A stretch of DNA of 64,000 nucleotides, from contig NZ_JANHDJ010000001.1 of the NCBI RefSeq assembly GCF_024494645.1, forward strand, positions 496,001 to 560,000. Direction: 5' to 3'. Each line of letters opens with the position of its first letter. Within the stretch, counting starts at the first letter, position 1. The notes beneath the pieces are model-generated. The model was not told the origin of the DNA. It did not search any database and was given only the letters and a program-made list of their open reading frames with translations. Origin of the DNA: Halohasta litorea (lineage in GTDB: Archaea; Halobacteriota; Halobacteria; Halobacteriales; Haloferacaceae). Position numbers and translations under genes: made by a program. Below are positions 28,966-36,811 of this stretch, one piece after another.

Positions 28966-30534
28966 TTAACTCGCCTGACACTCCCACTCGATGACTGTGA
29001 ACGGACGTGCCGTGTCTAAGCTTCCGTCAAGCGGGCTGGGCTGGTAGACCCTGGAGACGGTCAGTTGGTCGACTGGCCGGTCGTGGGCCGTCGCGACCTG
29101 CCCGCAGGCCCAGTCGGCGTAGGCCTCGGCGATCTCGTCGCCAGTGTCGTCCTCGCCGGAGTCCTGGACCTTCTGCAGATATTTGCGGTGCCGGAACGTC
29201 TCGTAGCTCCCGGCGGCATCAGGCGGGTGCTTGAAGGTGTCGGCGGTTCCAGGAAGGTCGGCGATCACCGTCCCGTTGCTGAGTTCGGCCTCGACGACGT
29301 ACCAACTGTAGGACTCCGACGGATCCGGAGCGTACAGGCCCCAACTCTGCTGGTCGACGGTGGCGCTGTCGATCTCCTCGGGGACGCTGTAGTCGGAGAC
29401 GTCCGCCGCGCCGAACATGAGCATCCAGACGACTACCAACAGCCCGATCACCGTCAGCAGTGACCGGGCGTATGATACTGCATACGAGGCCGCAAACGCG
29501 TGGCCACGCGCTCGGAGGCCGTCGAGCAGTCGCCGCTCGATCGGCGGTCGGCCCACCGGCCCGAGGTCGTCGACCGTCGGCAGCCGGTTGCGCCAGCGGT
29601 CCGGCACCCGACGCGAGAGGTGGTCCCAGAAGGGGGCCGTAAGGAAGGGAAGTACCGAGGCGATCAGTCCGAGCGGGAAGATTCCGACGCTCATCGTCAC
29701 GAGCATGCCGCTGAACGCGCCGATGTAGGCTAGCGCGGCGAGCGCCCGGAGCCGACCCACGGGCACAACCAAGAACAGCACCGACCCCGATAGCAACGTG
29801 ATCCAACCGTAGTTGAGCACAGTCATGACCGTCGGATAGCTGGCGAGCACGTCGCCCAGCAAGATCGTCATCACGTCGTTTTTCAATGCGATTTCGAGGG
29901 CTTCGCCCGCATACCAGGTCTCGCCTTGGTGTTTTAGAATCGCATTCGAAATGAAGACGATCAGTGGCTGGAGCAGCACGGCGACGGTCCCGAAACTGGC
30001 GACCGCTGATCGGGCCGACCCGCGCCGAAGCGCATCGACCGACCACCGCTCGCCGAGCGGTGTGGTGAGCGCGACGAACAGGATCACCCGGAGCAGTCGG
30101 TCGCCGCCGTTGAGCACCGCAGGGTTGCGGGCGTGCAGCGAGAACAGCAAGATCAGCGACAGCGCCCCGACTAGCCGGGTTCGGTAGCCGAATACGAATG
30201 CGACCGCGAGCAGTCCGGCCACGACAAACAAGAGCTGTTGGAACCACAGCTCCCCCGAAAGCGCGTGGATCGATAGTCCGGTAAACTGGCTATAAGTGGC
30301 TTCGTACACCGAGAGCGGATAGACGCCGCTGTCGGTGTAGAACTGCGCCATGCTTCCGGCCCGATGAAGCAGGTCGATCAGCAGCGTCAGCCCGAGGGCG
30401 ATTCGCATCGCCGCCAGCGACCGGGTGTCGACGATGAACCGCGAGCGAATCCGGCTCCAGACGGGATCGAGACGGACCCGTAGCCGATCGGTCGGCGAGT
30501 ACTCGGCGTGCGGATCGGGGCTGTTTGTGTCCAT
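28966..30534 (-). CDS. HTTM (gamma-carboxylase-like) membrane protein
   Basis: This 522-residue protein opens with about 30 polar residues, then SLAAMRIALGLTLLIDLLHRAG, the HTTM-domain start. YTDSGVYPLSVYEATYSQF, ARNPAVLNGGDRLLRVILFVALTTPLGERWSVDAL and QPLIVFISNAILKHQGETWYAGEAL follow. HTTM proteins resemble the membrane half of vitamin K-dependent gamma-carboxylase; prokaryotic roles are mostly unknown. The last 150 residues form a soluble extracytoplasmic domain. Convergent with the small helical gene (6-bp gap). Confidence 0.88.
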   Translation of the reverse strand: MDTNSPDPHAEYSPTDRLRVRLDPVWSRIRSRFIVDTRSLAAMRIALGLTLLIDLLHRAGSMAQFYTDSGVYPLSVYEATYSQFTGLSIHALSGELWFQQLLFVVAGLLAVAFVFGYRTRLVGALSLILLFSLHARNPAVLNGGDRLLRVILFVALTTPLGERWSVDALRRGSARSAVASFGTVAVLLQPLIVFISNAILKHQGETWYAGEALEIALKNDVMTILLGDVLASYPTVMTVLNYGWITLLSGSVLFLVVPVGRLRALAALAYIGAFSGMLVTMSVGIFPLGLIASVLPFLTAPFWDHLSRRVPDRWRNRLPTVDDLGPVGRPPIERRLLDGLRARGHAFAASYAVSYARSLLTVIGLLVVVWMLMFGAADVSDYSVPEEIDSATVDQQSWGLYAPDPSESYSWYVVEAELSNGTVIADLPGTADTFKHPPDAAGSYETFRHRKYLQKVQDSGEDDTGDEIAEAYADWACGQVATAHDRPVDQLTVSRVYQPSPLDGSLDTARPFTVIEWECQAS

Positions 30535-30624
30535 AGTCGATGTCTAGGAACCGAGCGGTGGAAAACAGTATTCAGATGGTGAATGTATGCTTTGTGTTCA
30601 CGCAGCGGGCGTCGTACCGAACAC

Positions 30625-30634
30625 AATATATAAG
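30625..30634 (+). promoter_or_regulatory. TATA box of the dap leader transcript
   Basis: AATATATAAG is centred about 32 bp before the ATG at 30662. Transcription should start a few bases before that ATG, placing about 170 nt of leader before dapA. Confidence 0.65.
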
Positions 30635-30661
30635 TTCAGGTGCGCCACACTGTTCGGTGTG

Positions 30662-30736
30662 ATGCCCACTCGCCTCGCGGCCGTCGCCAGCCCCTCGACA
30701 GCGGTGGGTCCGAAGCCGAAGAAGCGTTTCTTCTGA
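30662..30736 (+). CDS. Candidate 24-residue lysine leader peptide
   Basis: A 25-codon frame starts at the position expected for a leaderless transcript. Its last seven sense codons encode KPKKRFF, so three lysine codons (all AAG) sit just before the stop. They are directly upstream of the lysine-biosynthetic dapA-dapB. The codons lie inside a perfect 6-bp hairpin (GAAGAA-GCGT-TTCTTC, 30718-30733). This resembles bacterial leader-peptide attenuators. The assignment is inference. Confidence 0.5.
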   Translation: MPTRLAAVASPSTAVGPKPKKRFF

Positions 30737-30746
30737 CTGCTCGTTG

Positions 30747-30776
30747 CGGGCGTGGCGTCCCGTTTCGGGTGTTTTT
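30747..30776 (+). promoter_or_regulatory. Candidate attenuator: alternative hairpins with a U-run before dapA
   Basis: CCCG (30759-30762) can pair upstream with CGGG (30747-30750) or downstream with CGGG (30766-30769). The second pairing is followed by GTTTTT, which would serve as a T-rich archaeal termination signal. The stems are only 4-5 bp, so the evidence is modest. A TATA-like ACTATACAG near 30800-30807 might also give dapA a second promoter. Confidence 0.4.
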
Positions 30777-30830
30777 ACTCATCTCGCAGAGTGCGACGAC
30801 TATACAGCAGCCGACGACAACACACAACCC

Positions 30831-31751
30831 ATGACAGACATCGACTTCAGCGGGGTCTTTCCGGCGATGGTGACCCCCTTTACCGAAGATAACGAGATCG
30901 ACACCGAAACACTCCGCGAGGACGCCCAGCGGCTCGAAAAAGCGGGCGTCGACGGGCTCGTTCCCGTCGGCTCGACCGGCGAGAGCGCGACGCTCTCGCA
31001 TGCCGAACACGTCGAGGTCATCGAGGCCGTCGTCGACGCCGTCGAGGACGTCCCCGTGATCGCAGGCACCGGCTCGAACAACACCGCCGAAGCCCTCGAC
31101 CTCTCACAGCAGGCCGCCGACGCGGGTGCTGATGCTCTCCTCCTGATTTCTCCCTACTACAACAAACCCGAACCCGAGGGGATGTACCAGCACTACAAAG
31201 CGGTCGCCGACGCGGTCGACGTCCCGCAGATCGTCTACAATGTCCCCAGCCGCACGGGTCGCAATATCGAAGTCGAGACCGCCGTCCGGCTCGCCGAACA
31301 CGACAACATCCGGGGTTACAAGGCTGCCTCCGGGGACCTGAACCGGATCAGCGAGGTCATCGAACGCACTCGTGAGGAGGATTTCGCGGTCCTCTCGGGC
31401 GACGACGGACTGACGCTGCCGACCCTCTCGGTTGGCGGCCACGGCGCGATCAGCGTCGTCGCCAACGTCGAACCCGAGCGAACCTGTGCGATGGTCGGGG
31501 CGGCCCTGGAGGGCGACTACGCCTTCGCGCGGGCGCTCCACCACGAACTCGCGCCGCTCGTCCGCCAGTTGTTCGTCGAGACCAACCCCATTCCAGTGAA
31601 AGCCGCCATGGAGATCCGCGGCTACGCCCCCGGCCGGATTCGGTCGCCGCTCACTGAACTCTCCGACGAACACCGCGAGGAACTGGCCGCCCGACTGGCT
31701 GAACTCGACGGCGAGCCAGCGACGCCCGACGAGGCGGAGGTCCCGAACTGA
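30831..31751 (+). CDS. dapA: 4-hydroxy-tetrahydrodipicolinate synthase
   Basis: This 306-residue TIM-barrel aldolase condenses pyruvate with aspartate semialdehyde, the first committed step of DAP/lysine synthesis. Signature residues are PVGSTGESATLSHAEH (Thr-Thr-type site), the Tyr of YNVPSRTG (about residue 138) and the Schiff-base lysine of IRGYKAASGD (about 166). The start is the ATG at 30831. dapB follows with a 1-bp overlap (TGATG). An upstream leader probably regulates it. Confidence 0.93.
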   Translation: MTDIDFSGVFPAMVTPFTEDNEIDTETLREDAQRLEKAGVDGLVPVGSTGESATLSHAEHVEVIEAVVDAVEDVPVIAGTGSNNTAEALDLSQQAADAGADALLLISPYYNKPEPEGMYQHYKAVADAVDVPQIVYNVPSRTGRNIEVETAVRLAEHDNIRGYKAASGDLNRISEVIERTREEDFAVLSGDDGLTLPTLSVGGHGAISVVANVEPERTCAMVGAALEGDYAFARALHHELAPLVRQLFVETNPIPVKAAMEIRGYAPGRIRSPLTELSDEHREELAARLAELDGEPATPDEAEVPN

Positions 31752-32518
31752 TGGTCCGGCTCGCGGTCACCGGCGCGGCCGGGCGGATGGGCCAGGAGGT
31801 ACTCGCGGCCGCCGCCGACCGCGAGGTCGAGGTGGCGTTCGCGGTCAACCGCAGTCCAGTCGCAGAGCCGATTGCGGGCGTCGACGTCCAGCCAACCGAC
31901 GAGTTCGCCGCCCTGTTGGCCGACCACCAGCCGGATGCCGTCGTCGACTTCACGGGGCCCGACTCCGCGGTCGACTACGCTGACGCCTGCGCCGAGATCG
32001 GCGTCGCGCTGGTCACCGGCACCACCGGTTTTGACGAGGCTGGCCTCGCGGCTCTGAAGGCGGCCAGCGAGTCGACGGCCGTTCTGAAGGCCTCGAACTT
32101 CTCGCGTGGTGTTGCCGCGCTTCGATTGGCGGTCCAGGAGGCCACCGCCGCCCTCCCCGACGCGGATATCGAACTCACCGAAACCCACCACAACGCCAAG
32201 CGCGATGCGCCGAGTGGGACCGCCAAAACGCTGCTCGACGATATCCAGGAGGTCCGCGAGGACCTCTCCGAGCGCGTCCATGGTCGAGAGGGCGAGGCCC
32301 CACGGTCGACCGACGAGATCGGCGTCCACGCCCGCCGGGCCGGAGATATCGCGGGCAAACACGAGGTCCTGCTTGGCGGGAGCAACGAGACGCTCTCACT
32401 CACGCATCGGGCTGGCGACCGGAGCATCTTCGCCGACGGAGCGCTGGATGCCGCCGAGTGGCTGGCCGGACGCGAGGCTGGCTGGTACGACTTCTTCGAG
32501 GTTATCGAGGGCGAGTAG
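31751..32518 (+). CDS. dapB: 4-hydroxy-tetrahydrodipicolinate reductase
   Basis: This 255-residue NAD(P)H enzyme has a Rossmann start VTGAAGRMGQEVL (residues 5-17). GTTGFDEAGL (about 94) follows, then the signature ELTETHHNAKRDAPSGTAKTL (about 142-160) with the catalytic His and Lys, and VLLGGSNETLSLTHRAGDRS. It reduces the DapA product. Translationally coupled to dapA. Confidence 0.95.
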   Translation: MVRLAVTGAAGRMGQEVLAAAADREVEVAFAVNRSPVAEPIAGVDVQPTDEFAALLADHQPDAVVDFTGPDSAVDYADACAEIGVALVTGTTGFDEAGLAALKAASESTAVLKASNFSRGVAALRLAVQEATAALPDADIELTETHHNAKRDAPSGTAKTLLDDIQEVREDLSERVHGREGEAPRSTDEIGVHARRAGDIAGKHEVLLGGSNETLSLTHRAGDRSIFADGALDAAEWLAGREAGWYDFFEVIEGE

Positions 32519-32938
32519 CCTCGTCGACGCCCCGAGTTCATTGAAGCGGTCTTCCGGATGGGGTGAACTCCGTTATCGAATCGTCGACACAGCAGGGCTA
32601 CCGGATGAGTCACTCCGGTTTTCGTTCGACTAGCGGAAGATATTATCATTGATTATTGATATATTCGGATCTGTGTGTCTGCTGAAAATCATAAGTAAAT
32701 AAATAGATGCTAGAAAAAGTATCCAATGTTATATTTATTGTCTATAGGTGTTTGGCAAGAAACTCTATATTTATTTTTAATTTAATTTATTATGGCCTAA
32801 TATCTGGGTATTTTATGAGGTATTTGGATTCGGCCACTGTTTTTCAATAACTCATTTCGAGTAATTGGATATCTGTCATACATCAAAAATCCGGTATATC
32901 GGTACTTTCATTATAATTCATTATTGTGTTCGGGTCGT
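32519..32938. other. AT-rich 420-bp gap between dapB and gntP
   Basis: From about 32640 to 32935 the DNA is strikingly AT-rich with no open frame of note. The only clear element is the TATA at 32911. The abrupt change of composition suggests an insertion boundary or an extended regulatory region. Confidence 0.6.
32911..32918 (+). promoter_or_regulatory. TATA box of the GntP-family gene
   Basis: TTATAATT is centred about 25 bp before the ATG at 32939, supporting leaderless transcription and this start. Confidence 0.6.
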
Positions 32939-34300
32939 ATGCTCGAAGGATTACCACTGGTACTGTTGCTCGCTGCATCGGTTGCGTTCATCATCATAGC
33001 CACGGCGAAGTTGGACCTCCATGCGTTTCTTGCACTCCTCATCGCCGCCTATCTGACCGGTCTCGTCGCAGGAATCGACCCTGCAGAGGTCGCCTCGCTG
33101 GTGACCGGCGGGTTCGGCGGCATCCTCGGCTACATCGGGATCGTCATCATCGCGGGGACGATTATCGGCACCTGTCTCGAACGGTCCGGTGCCGCGATCG
33201 TCATCGCGGAGACGATCCTCGATTATGTCGGCGAGGAGTACACGACACAAGTAATGGCGATCACGGGGAGTTTCGTCTCCATTCCGGTGTTCTGTGACTC
33301 CGGGTTCGTCATCCTCTCGGGACTGAACCGGTCGCTCGCCGAGCGCTCGGGGCTCTCGCTGTCGACGCTCGGCGTGGCGCTCGCCGGTGGGCTCTACGTC
33401 ACACACGTCTTCGTACCGCCGACGCCCGGTCCGATCGCGGCGGCGGGAATCATCGGTGCGGACATCGGCCTGGTCATGATCGCCGGGCTCATCGTCAGCG
33501 CGCCGATCGTCCTCGTCGCCGCGCTGTGGGCCGACAAAGTCGCCTCGAACTACCACATCGATCCGAATCCGGAGATGACGATCCAGGAGATCAAAGACGA
33601 GTACGGGACGATGCCCTCGCGTGCCGCGTCGTTCGCGCCGCTCCTCGTCCCGATCGCACTCATCGCGCTCGGATCGATCGCCGCTTTCCCCGAAGCGGAG
33701 AACCCGGAACTCATCACCGGGCCGCTCCAGCGCTGGCTGCTGTTCATCGGTGATCCGGCGGTCGCGCTGCTCATCGGCGCGTTCATCGCCTTTGCAATCG
33801 TCCCCGATTTCAGCAGCAAAGTCACCGACGACTGGGTTTCCGACGGGATCAAAAGTGCCGCGGTCATCCTCGCGGTGACCGGTGCTGGCGGCGCGTTCGG
33901 CGAAGTCCTCTCGGCGCTGCCCCTCGAGAACTTCATCACTGATACGCTGGGTGGTCTCGGTATCGGGCTGTTGGCCGCGTTCGTCATCGCCGCAGCGATG
34001 AAGACGGCCCTCGGCTCCTCGACGGTCGCGATCCTGACCACGGCTAGCCTCGTCGCGCCGCTGCTCGGTTCGCTCGGACTGAACACGGAGATCGGTCAGG
34101 TGTTCACCGTCCTCGCGATCGGTGCCGGTAGCATGACCGTCAGCCACGCCAACGACTCCTACTTCTGGATCATCACGGAGTTCTCCGACATGGAAACGGC
34201 GACGGCCTATCAGGCCTGGACGCTTGCGACGCTGGTGCTTGGCGTTTCGAGTATCATCTGGATCGTCATCCTCCGGAACATCGTGGGAGTGGTCTTCTAG
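32939..34300 (+). CDS. GntP-family organic acid:H+ symporter
   Basis: This 453-residue permease has about 12-14 membrane segments and GntP motifs: FGGILGYIGIVIIAGTIIGTCLE, GSFVSIPVFCDSGFVILSGL, YVTHVFVPPTPGPIAAAG, and SHANDSYFWIITEF near the end. The family imports gluconate or related sugar acids such as glycerate. The convergent glycerate kinase gene overlaps its stop by 4 bp, so glycerate is a likely substrate. It interrupts the dap cluster. Confidence 0.9.
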   Translation: MLEGLPLVLLLAASVAFIIIATAKLDLHAFLALLIAAYLTGLVAGIDPAEVASLVTGGFGGILGYIGIVIIAGTIIGTCLERSGAAIVIAETILDYVGEEYTTQVMAITGSFVSIPVFCDSGFVILSGLNRSLAERSGLSLSTLGVALAGGLYVTHVFVPPTPGPIAAAGIIGADIGLVMIAGLIVSAPIVLVAALWADKVASNYHIDPNPEMTIQEIKDEYGTMPSRAASFAPLLVPIALIALGSIAAFPEAENPELITGPLQRWLLFIGDPAVALLIGAFIAFAIVPDFSSKVTDDWVSDGIKSAAVILAVTGAGGAFGEVLSALPLENFITDTLGGLGIGLLAAFVIAAAMKTALGSSTVAILTTASLVAPLLGSLGLNTEIGQVFTVLAIGAGSMTVSHANDSYFWIITEFSDMETATAYQAWTLATLVLGVSSIIWIVILRNIVGVVF

Positions 34301-35637
34301 TCGACGACCACTACTCGCAGATCGTTGAGGTTCGTCCCGGTCGGTCCCGTCAGAACGAGGCCGTCCCGGGATTCGAGATACGGATACACGTCGTTTTCAG
34401 CGAGGGCCGCCCGAGCCGTCTCGGGGTCTTCGACGGTCGTTTCGTCGACCACTGCGCCCGCCGCGTCGGTCGCGCCGTCGATGCCGTCGGTGTCGACCGC
34501 TGCAACCACGATCCGTCCCTCGTCGTCTTCTTTGCTGCCATTGAGTTCGAGCGCCGCGCTCGTCGCGAACTCCTGATTCGGGCCGCCAGACCCGTTTCCG
34601 CGGATCGTTACCGTCGTCTCCCCGCCGGAGAGGATCACGGCTGGCGGCGAGACCGGCGTGTCTGTTGCCTGTACCTCCTCTGCGATGGCGACGTGGGTCG
34701 TGGCCGCATCGCGGGCCTCACCGCGAACCCGCGAGGAGAGCACGAGGGTCTCGTATCCGCGGTCGGCCGCCGCCGCTTGGGCCGCCGCAAGCACCGTCAT
34801 CCCGTCGGCGACGACGTGGTTCGAGACGGCCGCGACCACGGGATCGTCCGCACTCGGCGTTTCGTCGATCTCGCCGGACACACCGGATTCCAGATGAGCG
34901 ATGACGGCGTCGGGCGCGTCGATCCCGTACCGTTCGAGCACCGCGAGCGCCTCGTCGAACGTCGACTCATCGGGCGCGACGGGGCCGCTGGCGATCACGC
35001 TCAGGTCGTTGCCGACGACGTCGCTGAAGATCAGCGAGACGACCGTCGCGGGGGCCGCACGACGCGCCAGCCGACCGCCCTTCAGCGCCGAGAGGTGTTT
35101 GCGGACGGCATTGATCTCGTGGATATCGGCCCCGCTTTCGAGCAACGAATCGGTCGTCGATTGGAGATCCGCGAGCGAGACCTCCCCTGCCGGTGCGGGG
35201 AGGAGTGCACTCCCGCCGCCGGTGATCAGCGCGAGGACGAGCGTGTCCTCGGCGGCCGCATCCGCCGCTGCCAGCAGCTCCCGTGTCCCGTCGACCGCCC
35301 GCTCGCTCGGCACCGGGTGATCGCCCTCTCGCACCGTCACGCGCTCGGTGTCGACGGGATCGTCCGTGACAACGACGCCACGATCGATCCGGTCGCCGAG
35401 GATGGCTTCGAGTGCGACCGCGACGTGTGCCGCGGCGTTGCCGCCGCCGAGGACGACGATCTCCTCGTAGCCCCCGAGGTCATACGTCGAGTCGGCGATT
35501 CGGAGGGTGTCTCCGTCGAGCCCCACGGCATCCCGGACGATCGTTCGGGGATGGCCCGCCTCGATGCCCGCCTCGATGCAGTCGAGTGCAGTCCCGTGGG
35601 CCTCACTTGCGGCGAGGCGATCGCGGTCCTCGATCAT
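34297..35637 (-). CDS. Glycerate 2-kinase (MOFRL/DUF4147 type)
   Basis: This 446-residue protein has the N-terminal DUF4147 domain (VLGGGNAAAHVAVALEAILG, EGDHPVPSERAVDGTREL, LALITGGGSALLPAPAG, INAVRKHLSALKGGRLA) and the C-terminal MOFRL domain (VILSGGETTVTIRGNGSGGPNQEFA, VDTDGIDGATDAAGA). It phosphorylates D-glycerate to 2-phosphoglycerate. Its TAG stop and the permease's TAG stop share one palindromic CTAG (34297-34300). A small ORF overlaps its start by ATGA. Confidence 0.92.
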   Translation of the reverse strand: MIEDRDRLAASEAHGTALDCIEAGIEAGHPRTIVRDAVGLDGDTLRIADSTYDLGGYEEIVVLGGGNAAAHVAVALEAILGDRIDRGVVVTDDPVDTERVTVREGDHPVPSERAVDGTRELLAAADAAAEDTLVLALITGGGSALLPAPAGEVSLADLQSTTDSLLESGADIHEINAVRKHLSALKGGRLARRAAPATVVSLIFSDVVGNDLSVIASGPVAPDESTFDEALAVLERYGIDAPDAVIAHLESGVSGEIDETPSADDPVVAAVSNHVVADGMTVLAAAQAAAADRGYETLVLSSRVRGEARDAATTHVAIAEEVQATDTPVSPPAVILSGGETTVTIRGNGSGGPNQEFATSAALELNGSKEDDEGRIVVAAVDTDGIDGATDAAGAVVDETTVEDPETARAALAENDVYPYLESRDGLVLTGPTGTNLNDLRVVVVD

Positions 35638-35774: not shown

Positions 35775-35968
35775 ACCCCGACAGTATTCCGGCAACTGCT
35801 AAAGTTCCTGTCCTAGAACGCAGGAAGGAGCGACCACGGGCAGGCAACCTCACAGTCGACCGGCGAGCACGGCCGACGATTCCCCCACTCGACACGGCAC
35901 CGACCTTCATCCCGTCGACCGCAACCGATGGGTCTTATTGGGTGGCCGAGAAAGCCGAATTTACACGA

Positions 35969-36811
35969 ATGTCGACACTCCAATCCGAAATCCAGGCGCT
36001 CTGGAACCGCTACGACGACGGCCTGACCGCCGACGAGGCGACCGACGAGGACCTCGCAACGCTCGATGTCTTCCTGGAGGCCCTCGAAGCAGGCGACGTC
36101 CGGTCGGCCGAGAAGACCGGCGACGACGTGACCTCGTGGGAGGCCAACGCGTGGGTCAAACAGGGGATTCTCCTCAACTTCGGCCTCCGGCACACCGAAG
36201 CCCGGAGCCACGGCGGCGTCGACTACCACGACGTCCTCCCCCTCCGGCAGACTGCCGACCTCAACGAACGCGGCACCCGGAACACGCCCGACGGCACCAC
36301 GATCCGCCGGGGGGCCTACCTCGGCTCCGACTGCATCATGATGAGTCCCTCCTTCGTCAACATCGGTGCCTATGTCGGCGACGGCACGCTGGTCGACTCC
36401 TGTGACACGGTCGGTTCCTGCGCGCAGCTCGGCGAGAACGTGAAATTGGGTGCGAACACACTTATCGGCGGCGTCCTGGAGCCCGTTGAGGGCGCGCCGG
36501 TCATCATCGAAGACGGCGTCTCGCTGGGCGCTGGCTGCCGGGTTACCTCCGGCTTCAAGATTGGCGAAAACTCGATCGTCGGCGAAAACACCCTCCTCAC
36601 ACCACGCATTCCCGTCTACGATCTCGTTGAAGAGGAGGTCATCTACGGTCACCTCCCCTCCGACCGTCGGGCGTTCACCCGCTATGTCGAATCCTCGGTC
36701 AGCGACCACGCTTTGTTCGATGGTGGGGCGTACAAGCCAGCCGTTGTCGCCACGGGTGTCGAAGAGGAAACGCTTGAAGCGACCCAACGCGAGGACGCGC
36801 TGCGGGAGTAG
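35969..36811 (+). CDS. dapD: 2,3,4,5-tetrahydropyridine-2,6-dicarboxylate N-succinyltransferase
   Basis: This 280-residue enzyme has a left-handed beta-helix. An N-terminal helical domain precedes hexapeptide repeats such as IRRGAYLGSDCIMMSPSFVN, IGAYVGDGTLVDSCDTVGSC and LGENVKLGANTLIGG, and it ends with DRRAFTRYVESSVSDH. It succinylates tetrahydrodipicolinate with succinyl-CoA, so lysine is made by the succinylase branch. TCTTATTG about 30 bp upstream supports the ATG at 35969. Confidence 0.93.
   Translation: MSTLQSEIQALWNRYDDGLTADEATDEDLATLDVFLEALEAGDVRSAEKTGDDVTSWEANAWVKQGILLNFGLRHTEARSHGGVDYHDVLPLRQTADLNERGTRNTPDGTTIRRGAYLGSDCIMMSPSFVNIGAYVGDGTLVDSCDTVGSCAQLGENVKLGANTLIGGVLEPVEGAPVIIEDGVSLGAGCRVTSGFKIGENSIVGENTLLTPRIPVYDLVEEEVIYGHLPSDRRAFTRYVESSVSDHALFDGGAYKPAVVATGVEEETLEATQREDALRE

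Follow-up and report, generated by a model that had tools for sequence, protein, structure and literature searches.

Comparison of haloarchaeal sequences across the class Halobacteria strongly supports the presence of a lysine-sensing leader peptide in front of dapA. The window, a 64,000 nt stretch of the Halohasta litorea genome, carries one example of this arrangement. We consider it probable that the dapA(-dapB) transcript stands under a cis-acting lysine attenuator that is operated by the translating ribosome. An earlier note on this DNA had proposed attenuation by a Lys leader peptide. The idea of a Lys-sensing leader is backed by the comparison, while the anatomy given at that time, namely a hairpin over the Lys codons and a CCCG switch to a T-run terminator, is mostly unconserved.

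The leader reading frame and its promoter

The features of the locus are collected in Table 1. The opposing gene upstream of the leader region starts at 30534, and a G+C-rich hairpin region lies between the leader ORF and dapA. The TATA box and the three in-frame AAG codons ahead of the TGA had been recognized before and are indeed there, and the lysine genes do come next, as had also been stated. The dapB-like ORF is probably part of the dapA transcript. Further downstream, two ORFs at 32924-35637, one permease-like and the other kinase-like and in opposing orientation, interrupt the lysine cluster. They separate dapB from a dapD-like gene (35942-36811), after which dapF-like and lysA-like ORFs follow, as judged from inspected translations.

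Table 1. Features of the dapA leader region in the Halohasta litorea window
Feature	Position	Strand	Remarks
Strong TATA box and upstream AA element (AATATATAAG)	30625..30634	+	promoter of the leader transcript; equivalent at fixed spacing in 80/81 loci
Leader ORF, GTG start, 25 codons, VMPTRLAAVASPSTAVGPKPKKRFF, stop TGA 30734-30736	30659..30736	+	homologous ORF in 81/81 dapA loci
Putative regulatory Lys codons, AAG at 30713, 30719 and 30722	30713..30724	+	in-frame; comparison of 81 loci
P1 5' strand TGCTCG, outer stem	30738..30743	+	covariation; within the expected footprint of a ribosome that stands on the stop codon
P2 5' strand GCGGG, inner stem	30746..30750	+	covariation
P2 3' strand CCCGT	30759..30763	+	covariation; CCCG can alternatively pair with CGGG 30766-30769 (3:4)
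P1 3' strand CGGGTG	30766..30771	+	covariation
TTTTT immediately 3' of the hairpin	30772..30776	+	possible termination site, clade-local; relatives mostly T-enriched without a T-run
dapA, 4-hydroxy-tetrahydrodipicolinate synthase, presumed controlled gene	30831..31751	+	ATG 30831
dapB-like ORF, 1-base overlap with the dapA stop	31751..32518	+	translation inspected

We compared 81 dapA loci, namely that of the window and 80 others from named genomes of haloarchaea. This comparison of upstream regions, which the earlier note had suggested as a check, found the Lys codons and a hairpin, although a different one, to be conserved, and hence did not refute the proposal. All 81 loci have a leaderless-type mini-ORF, 23-33 codons long, that carries Lys codons close to its end (for example MRHVAHPPVGSVVSGVCPRFIKRKRV, VTRPASARGPRPAPATRLFSKKRA and MPRTARVADPVSVSGASATSFSKKRV in relatives). 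An in-frame start follows the TATA element in 80 of the 80 TATA-bearing loci, at a distance of 28 nt (74 loci), 29 nt (3) or 35 nt (3), and the ORF is open throughout. A start at that spacing occurs in the other two frames in only 10 and 14 loci. The fixed spacing from TATA to start, in frame with the Lys codons, argues for a leaderless transcript that begins with the start codon of the leader. In the window this conserved start corresponds to GTG 30659, 28 nt past the T of TAAG, and the peptide has 25 aa; the ATG at 30662 with 24 residues, as previously assigned, has to be replaced accordingly. Since the in-frame start is kept despite variation in ORF length, the reading frame does matter. 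The peptide sequence itself is seemingly of little importance, because the N-terminal part is variable and there is no surplus of changes at codon position 3. The tails also differ widely (KRKRA, KPKKRFF, AKRKPMF, KPKRTDDY), and Lys almost always adjoins Arg in a conserved basic tail.

At least two Lys codons are found among the last codons of the upstream mini-ORF in 79 of 81 dapA loci, compared to 3 of 142 control loci (trpC, hisG, hom, tyrS, leuA) that have the same kind of tail (Fisher p about 5e-54, with rows that are not phylogenetically independent). The ratio of AAA to AAG is 155:26 in the 81 leaders and 21:239 in the dapA genes. This opposite bias raises the possibility that the leader preferentially reads one tRNA-Lys isoacceptor. 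The preference for AAA could in part also come from a need for unstructured, A-rich RNA.

Across the 81 loci a predicted promoter is conserved 5' of the leader, and none is conserved between leader and dapA. The window has a weak TATA-like site, CTATAC at 30800-30805 (core 30801-30804), located 28 nt 5' of the dapA ATG. Such a site precedes the dapA ATG in only two of the 81 loci (the window and L006), and a second promoter as the main start of dapA was rejected on these grounds. It is possible that CTATAC provides a second, leader-independent start in the clade of the window.

The two-tier hairpin and its distance from the Lys codons

The leader stop is directly followed by a two-tier hairpin, which consists of an outer stem P1, an internal loop and an inner stem P2. 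In a structure-fitted alignment of 86 sequences, which is biased toward structure, 96.0% of the cells are paired, versus 37-53% when the structure is slid as a whole and 30-65% when a single helix is slid. Two-sided changes occur at 8 of the 12 pairs in the same alignment. P2 appears as CGGG:CCCG, CGAG:CTCG and CGGA:TCCG. The variants of P1 include GTGCTCG:CGGGCAC, GCGCTCG:CGGGCGC and TGACTCG:CGGGTCG, as well as CGTCCG:CGGACG in Halorubrum, CGCCC:GGGCG in Halopenitus and CGGGCT:GGCCCG in a further locus (L064). Counting by parsimony on the DapA tree, for 54 of the 86 aligned loci, revealed 13 independent compensatory double changes in P1 and 9 in P2, 22 in all, compared to 0-3 for slid partners. 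A swap test, which needs no structure-fitted alignment, points in the same direction: the P1 5' strand combined with the 3' strand of another locus reached a mean score of 9.5 +/- 0.25, and the true partners reached 11.7.

These helices agree only in part with those described earlier. Relatives do not share the 6-bp hairpin that had been placed over the Lys codons (30718-30733). In the sister species Halohasta salina (GAAGAAGCGTCCCTTT), whose DapA is 96% identical to that of the window, the 3' arm of this hairpin is disrupted, and we rejected the hairpin as a by-product of the K-K-R-F-F codons. The CCCG at 30759-30762 does have the two CGGG partners that had been reported. The upstream pairing is P2 and covaries, but the downstream pairing (3:4), although possible in most loci, shows zero compensatory changes and was therefore rejected as a conserved switch. 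The downstream CGGG is part of the P1 3' strand, and the outer stem P1 had been missed altogether. The T-run said to follow the second pairing is present in the window, but TTTT within 20 nt 3' of the hairpin occurs in only 7 of 86 loci, which belong to a few clades and include the window. TTT is found within these 20 nt in 25 of 86 loci and within the next 20 nt in 3 of 86, and no U-run follows the hairpin in the Halorubrum loci. A T-run as conserved terminator was rejected for this reason. The classical design of an intrinsic terminator, a hairpin plus U-run, is thus missing from most loci, and a terminator of the bacterial type is not general here.

The distance from the last Lys codon to P2 is 25.1 +/- 1.35 nt in the 81 loci, whereas that from the stop codon to P2 is 14.6 +/- 4.2 nt. 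In three loci (L010, L011, L040) the stop is lost and the ORF continues through P1 and P2, with the Lys-to-hairpin distance unchanged. Thus, it is the Lys codons and not the stop that are tied to the hairpin. If the footprint equals that of bacterial ribosomes, a ribosome waiting on the last Lys codon would have its edge just 5' of P1, and one that has arrived at the stop would cover the P1 5' strand. The mean folding energy of the free downstream RNA is -22.1 kcal/mol in the former case and -9.7 kcal/mol in the latter.

A probable ribosome-operated attenuator and its alternatives

We infer that the leader is translated and that the ribosome stalls on it when tRNA-Lys is uncharged. Transcription would begin at the leader's own GTG and the ribosome would translate the 25 codons. 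When charged tRNA-Lys is scarce, it would stall on the Lys codons, its front reaching almost to P1, and P1/P2 would stay folded. With ample lysine it would reach the stop codon, its footprint would cover the P1 5' strand and P1 would open. The intact hairpin would let RNA polymerase read through into dapA. An opened hairpin, with the leader RNA afterwards untranslated, would lead to early termination, either at a U-rich site past the hairpin or by FttA. FttA, to which polarity in archaea is ascribed (PMC12548453), is a plausible candidate for terminating the leader RNA. Starvation as the ON state is favoured because dapA makes lysine, and since P1/P2 would be present during the stall, it is taken as the read-through state. 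The ORFs that run through P2 in the three loci named above suggest that the conserved step is the opening of P1/P2 by the ribosome, and not a 3:4 terminator that forms. Provided that the rest holds, we lean towards transcription as the level at which the decision falls. Some leaders count against the proposed attenuator. The Halobacterium-like G003 and G012 keep the hairpin with one Lys codon, and so does g71. The hairpin region is kept with a single Lys codon in four g71 loci (L105, L211, L212, L213), where the oddly aromatic leader ends in FGFGFTGKFYTR, and in two g26 loci (L222, L223), where it ends in SGKRRTADH.

One may also take P1/P2 together with the U's for a terminator, in which case the same lysine sensor would work with the opposite logic. 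P1/P2 and the U-rich stretch would then form a terminator or pause hairpin that is prevented by the ribosome at the stop codon, and expression would need efficient leader translation. This would agree with a strong and conserved P1/P2, with the T-enrichment directly after it and with the TTTTT in the window, and the ORFs crossing both stems would simply melt the hairpin. However, lysine starvation would then shut lysine synthesis off, which would hardly be sensible for dapA, and the U-run is missing in most loci, so that we regard the reversed logic as unlikely. We give slightly less weight still to a ribosome-gated hairpin that alters access to the dapA start, or access of nucleases, and hence acts on translation or mRNA stability instead of transcription. 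That U-runs are not general would fit this idea, and leader-peptide control of translation or of RNA decay is known from bacteria. The hairpin, however, is distant from the dapA start (P2 end to dapA start, median 103 nt), and this distance is variable and the region in between unconserved. Moreover, the leader stop lies a median of 127 nt (range 58-236) from the dapA ATG, and in H. volcanii the coupling of termination and reinitiation weakens once the spacing exceeds 30-40 nt (PMC12548453). Reinitiation is thus unlikely, and termination-reinitiation from the leader to dapA was rejected because the spacing is too long.

It might also be that not the codons sense charged tRNA-Lys but that the Lys/Arg-rich tail stalls in the ribosomal tunnel on free lysine or another ligand. 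The conserved basic tail, in which Lys nearly always stands beside Arg, would be in line with such a nascent-peptide arrest. Its residues vary, however, while the Lys-codon-to-hairpin distance is constant, and the strong AAA bias suggests decoding; we consider the arrest improbable. Even harder to maintain is the view that a conserved RNA element, or a small protein, stands at dapA incidentally and has no part in lysine regulation. The Lys codons are locked to the hairpin, the promoter-start spacing is fixed, the stems covary, the element is linked to dapA and the background among control loci is low, all of which make such a coincidence highly improbable. The lysine attenuator with starvation as the ON state hence remains our preferred reading.

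Distribution, further leaders and known systems

A covariance model of the element matched 364 of 391 Halobacteria genomes, in 83 of 86 genera, and had no match in the other genomes of the phylum (E <= 1e-5). Every strong match with inspected flanks lies upstream of dapA. The element is usually single-copy. Second matches score weakly and do not point to a second gene; they have no leader or dapA context and were rejected, except for one (L110) that is the diverged dapA leader of its genome. Another 40 representatives retrieved by the model have the same layout, five of which needed manual reading. Among the 20 no-match genomes listed, three are without a close dapA homologue. Several no-match genomes have diverged leaders with the Lys codons kept (tails such as GLKRTKRGY and RRSKRDKR), and a clear leader was not found in G140, in the low-G+C g3 genomes (G014, G313, G316) and in the deep branches G021 and G218. 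H. volcanii uses the diaminopimelate route with HVO_1101 as dapA, and Halobacterium salinarum is without lysine biosynthesis (PMC8305020). The latter agrees with some genomes missing both dapA and the element.

The pheS gene provides a second candidate for a haloarchaeal leader peptide. A leader with terminal Phe codons precedes pheS in 20 of 29 haloarchaeal genomes (for example L275, L278, L279, L296), with tails such as PGFGFFFA and SGFGFFFAR and a promoter spacing that is constant in nearly all; the window's own genome has no such leader. The last Phe codon starts 6-12 nt 5' of the stop. Read by eye, most of these leaders are followed by a two-tier hairpin that starts about 9-12 nt past the stop, with P1 variants CGCGCGG:CCGCGCG, CGCGTGG:CCACGCG and GAGCGG:CCGCTC, and RNAalifold found no consensus structure in the pheS leader alignment. 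Tails with Phe are absent from the 142 control loci. This parallel makes it more credible that the Lys leader acts as an amino acid sensor.

Convincing Trp, His and Thr/Met/Ile leaders were not found before trpC, hisG and hom, respectively, nor was a Phe leader before pheA in the sampled haloarchaea, and Lys, Phe, Trp or His tails before tyrS and leuA did not exceed background. Upstream of trpC many haloarchaea (L117-L145) have palindrome-like TGTACA...TGTACA sites, which suggest a DNA-binding repressor and not a Trp leader. A leuA/cimA-like gene has a TATA-proximal leaderless ATG out of the enzyme frame in 21 of 21 haloarchaea (L330-L350), including the genome of the window (L335, G000:C11:707328-708098). 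A near-invariant TCGAGTTCTTC stretch marks the place where the two frames join, and neither ATG nor GTG occurs in the enzyme frame close to the promoter. This gene is a candidate for a programmed frameshift or a non-AUG start.

A description of amino-acid-sensing leader peptides from Archaea was not found in the open-access literature, and an earlier description in subscription papers or on bioRxiv is possible. Like the dapA leader, the uORFs listed in a start-site survey of H. volcanii are mini-ORFs in haloarchaeal 5' regions; they lie in long 5' UTRs and include one of 26 aa before pheS (HVO_2948) (Babski et al. 2016, PMC4983044, Table 2). All 16 uORFs listed there are acidic, dapA (HVO_1101) is not among them, and neither attenuation nor amino acid sensing was proposed (PMC4983044). 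Regulation by attenuation through uORFs has been stated in general terms for bacteria, archaea and eukaryotes in a tool paper, with no archaeal example in the accessible part of that text (PMC10219788).

Haloarchaea might possess a general class of amino-acid-sensing leaders, with Lys at dapA, Phe at pheS and perhaps more, in which archaeal termination is governed by a two-tier hairpin that the ribosome gates, probably via FttA and with no need for a terminator hairpin of the bacterial type. We put this forward tentatively, as a possibility that falls somewhat short of an even case. If true, attenuation evolved independently in Archaea, and the Phe/pheS parallel suggests that the principle is general. 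If confirmed, the dapA leader would be a class-wide case in genetically tractable organisms, with 83 of the 86 haloarchaeal genera sampled having it. It would make in vivo tests of archaeal transcription-translation coupling and FttA-dependent termination possible, and would reveal the way in which lysine synthesis is regulated in haloarchaea.

Leader-peptide attenuation is a textbook mechanism of bacteria and depends on the coupling of ribosome and RNA polymerase. The bacterial attenuators (trp, his, thr, pheA and E. coli pheM-pheST) share with the dapA leader a short leader ORF, codons for the end product that are positioned such that the place of the ribosome can set the downstream RNA structure, and a location before a biosynthesis or synthetase gene. 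The Phe leader of haloarchaeal pheS parallels E. coli pheM-pheST. A regular leader peptide found comparatively outside the classical bacterial groups has a precedent in the His leader peptides before hisS/hisZ in Firmicutes, which unlike the dapA leader are bacterial and use Rho-independent terminators (PMC2965389). The lysine riboswitch (L box) and the T-box also exert amino-acid-related control in cis on bacterial lysine and synthetase genes. However, a search of 30500-31000 against Rfam gave no family match up to E = 1, and a lysine riboswitch, T-box or other Rfam family was rejected. The dapA leader contains no large aptamer, and its conserved putative sensor is a coding frame. In contrast to the bacterial attenuators, it is archaeal, starts leaderless at a TATA promoter and concerns lysine. 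It has one nested two-tier hairpin instead of exchanging 1:2, 2:3 and 3:4 helices, and does without a general terminator hairpin with U-run.
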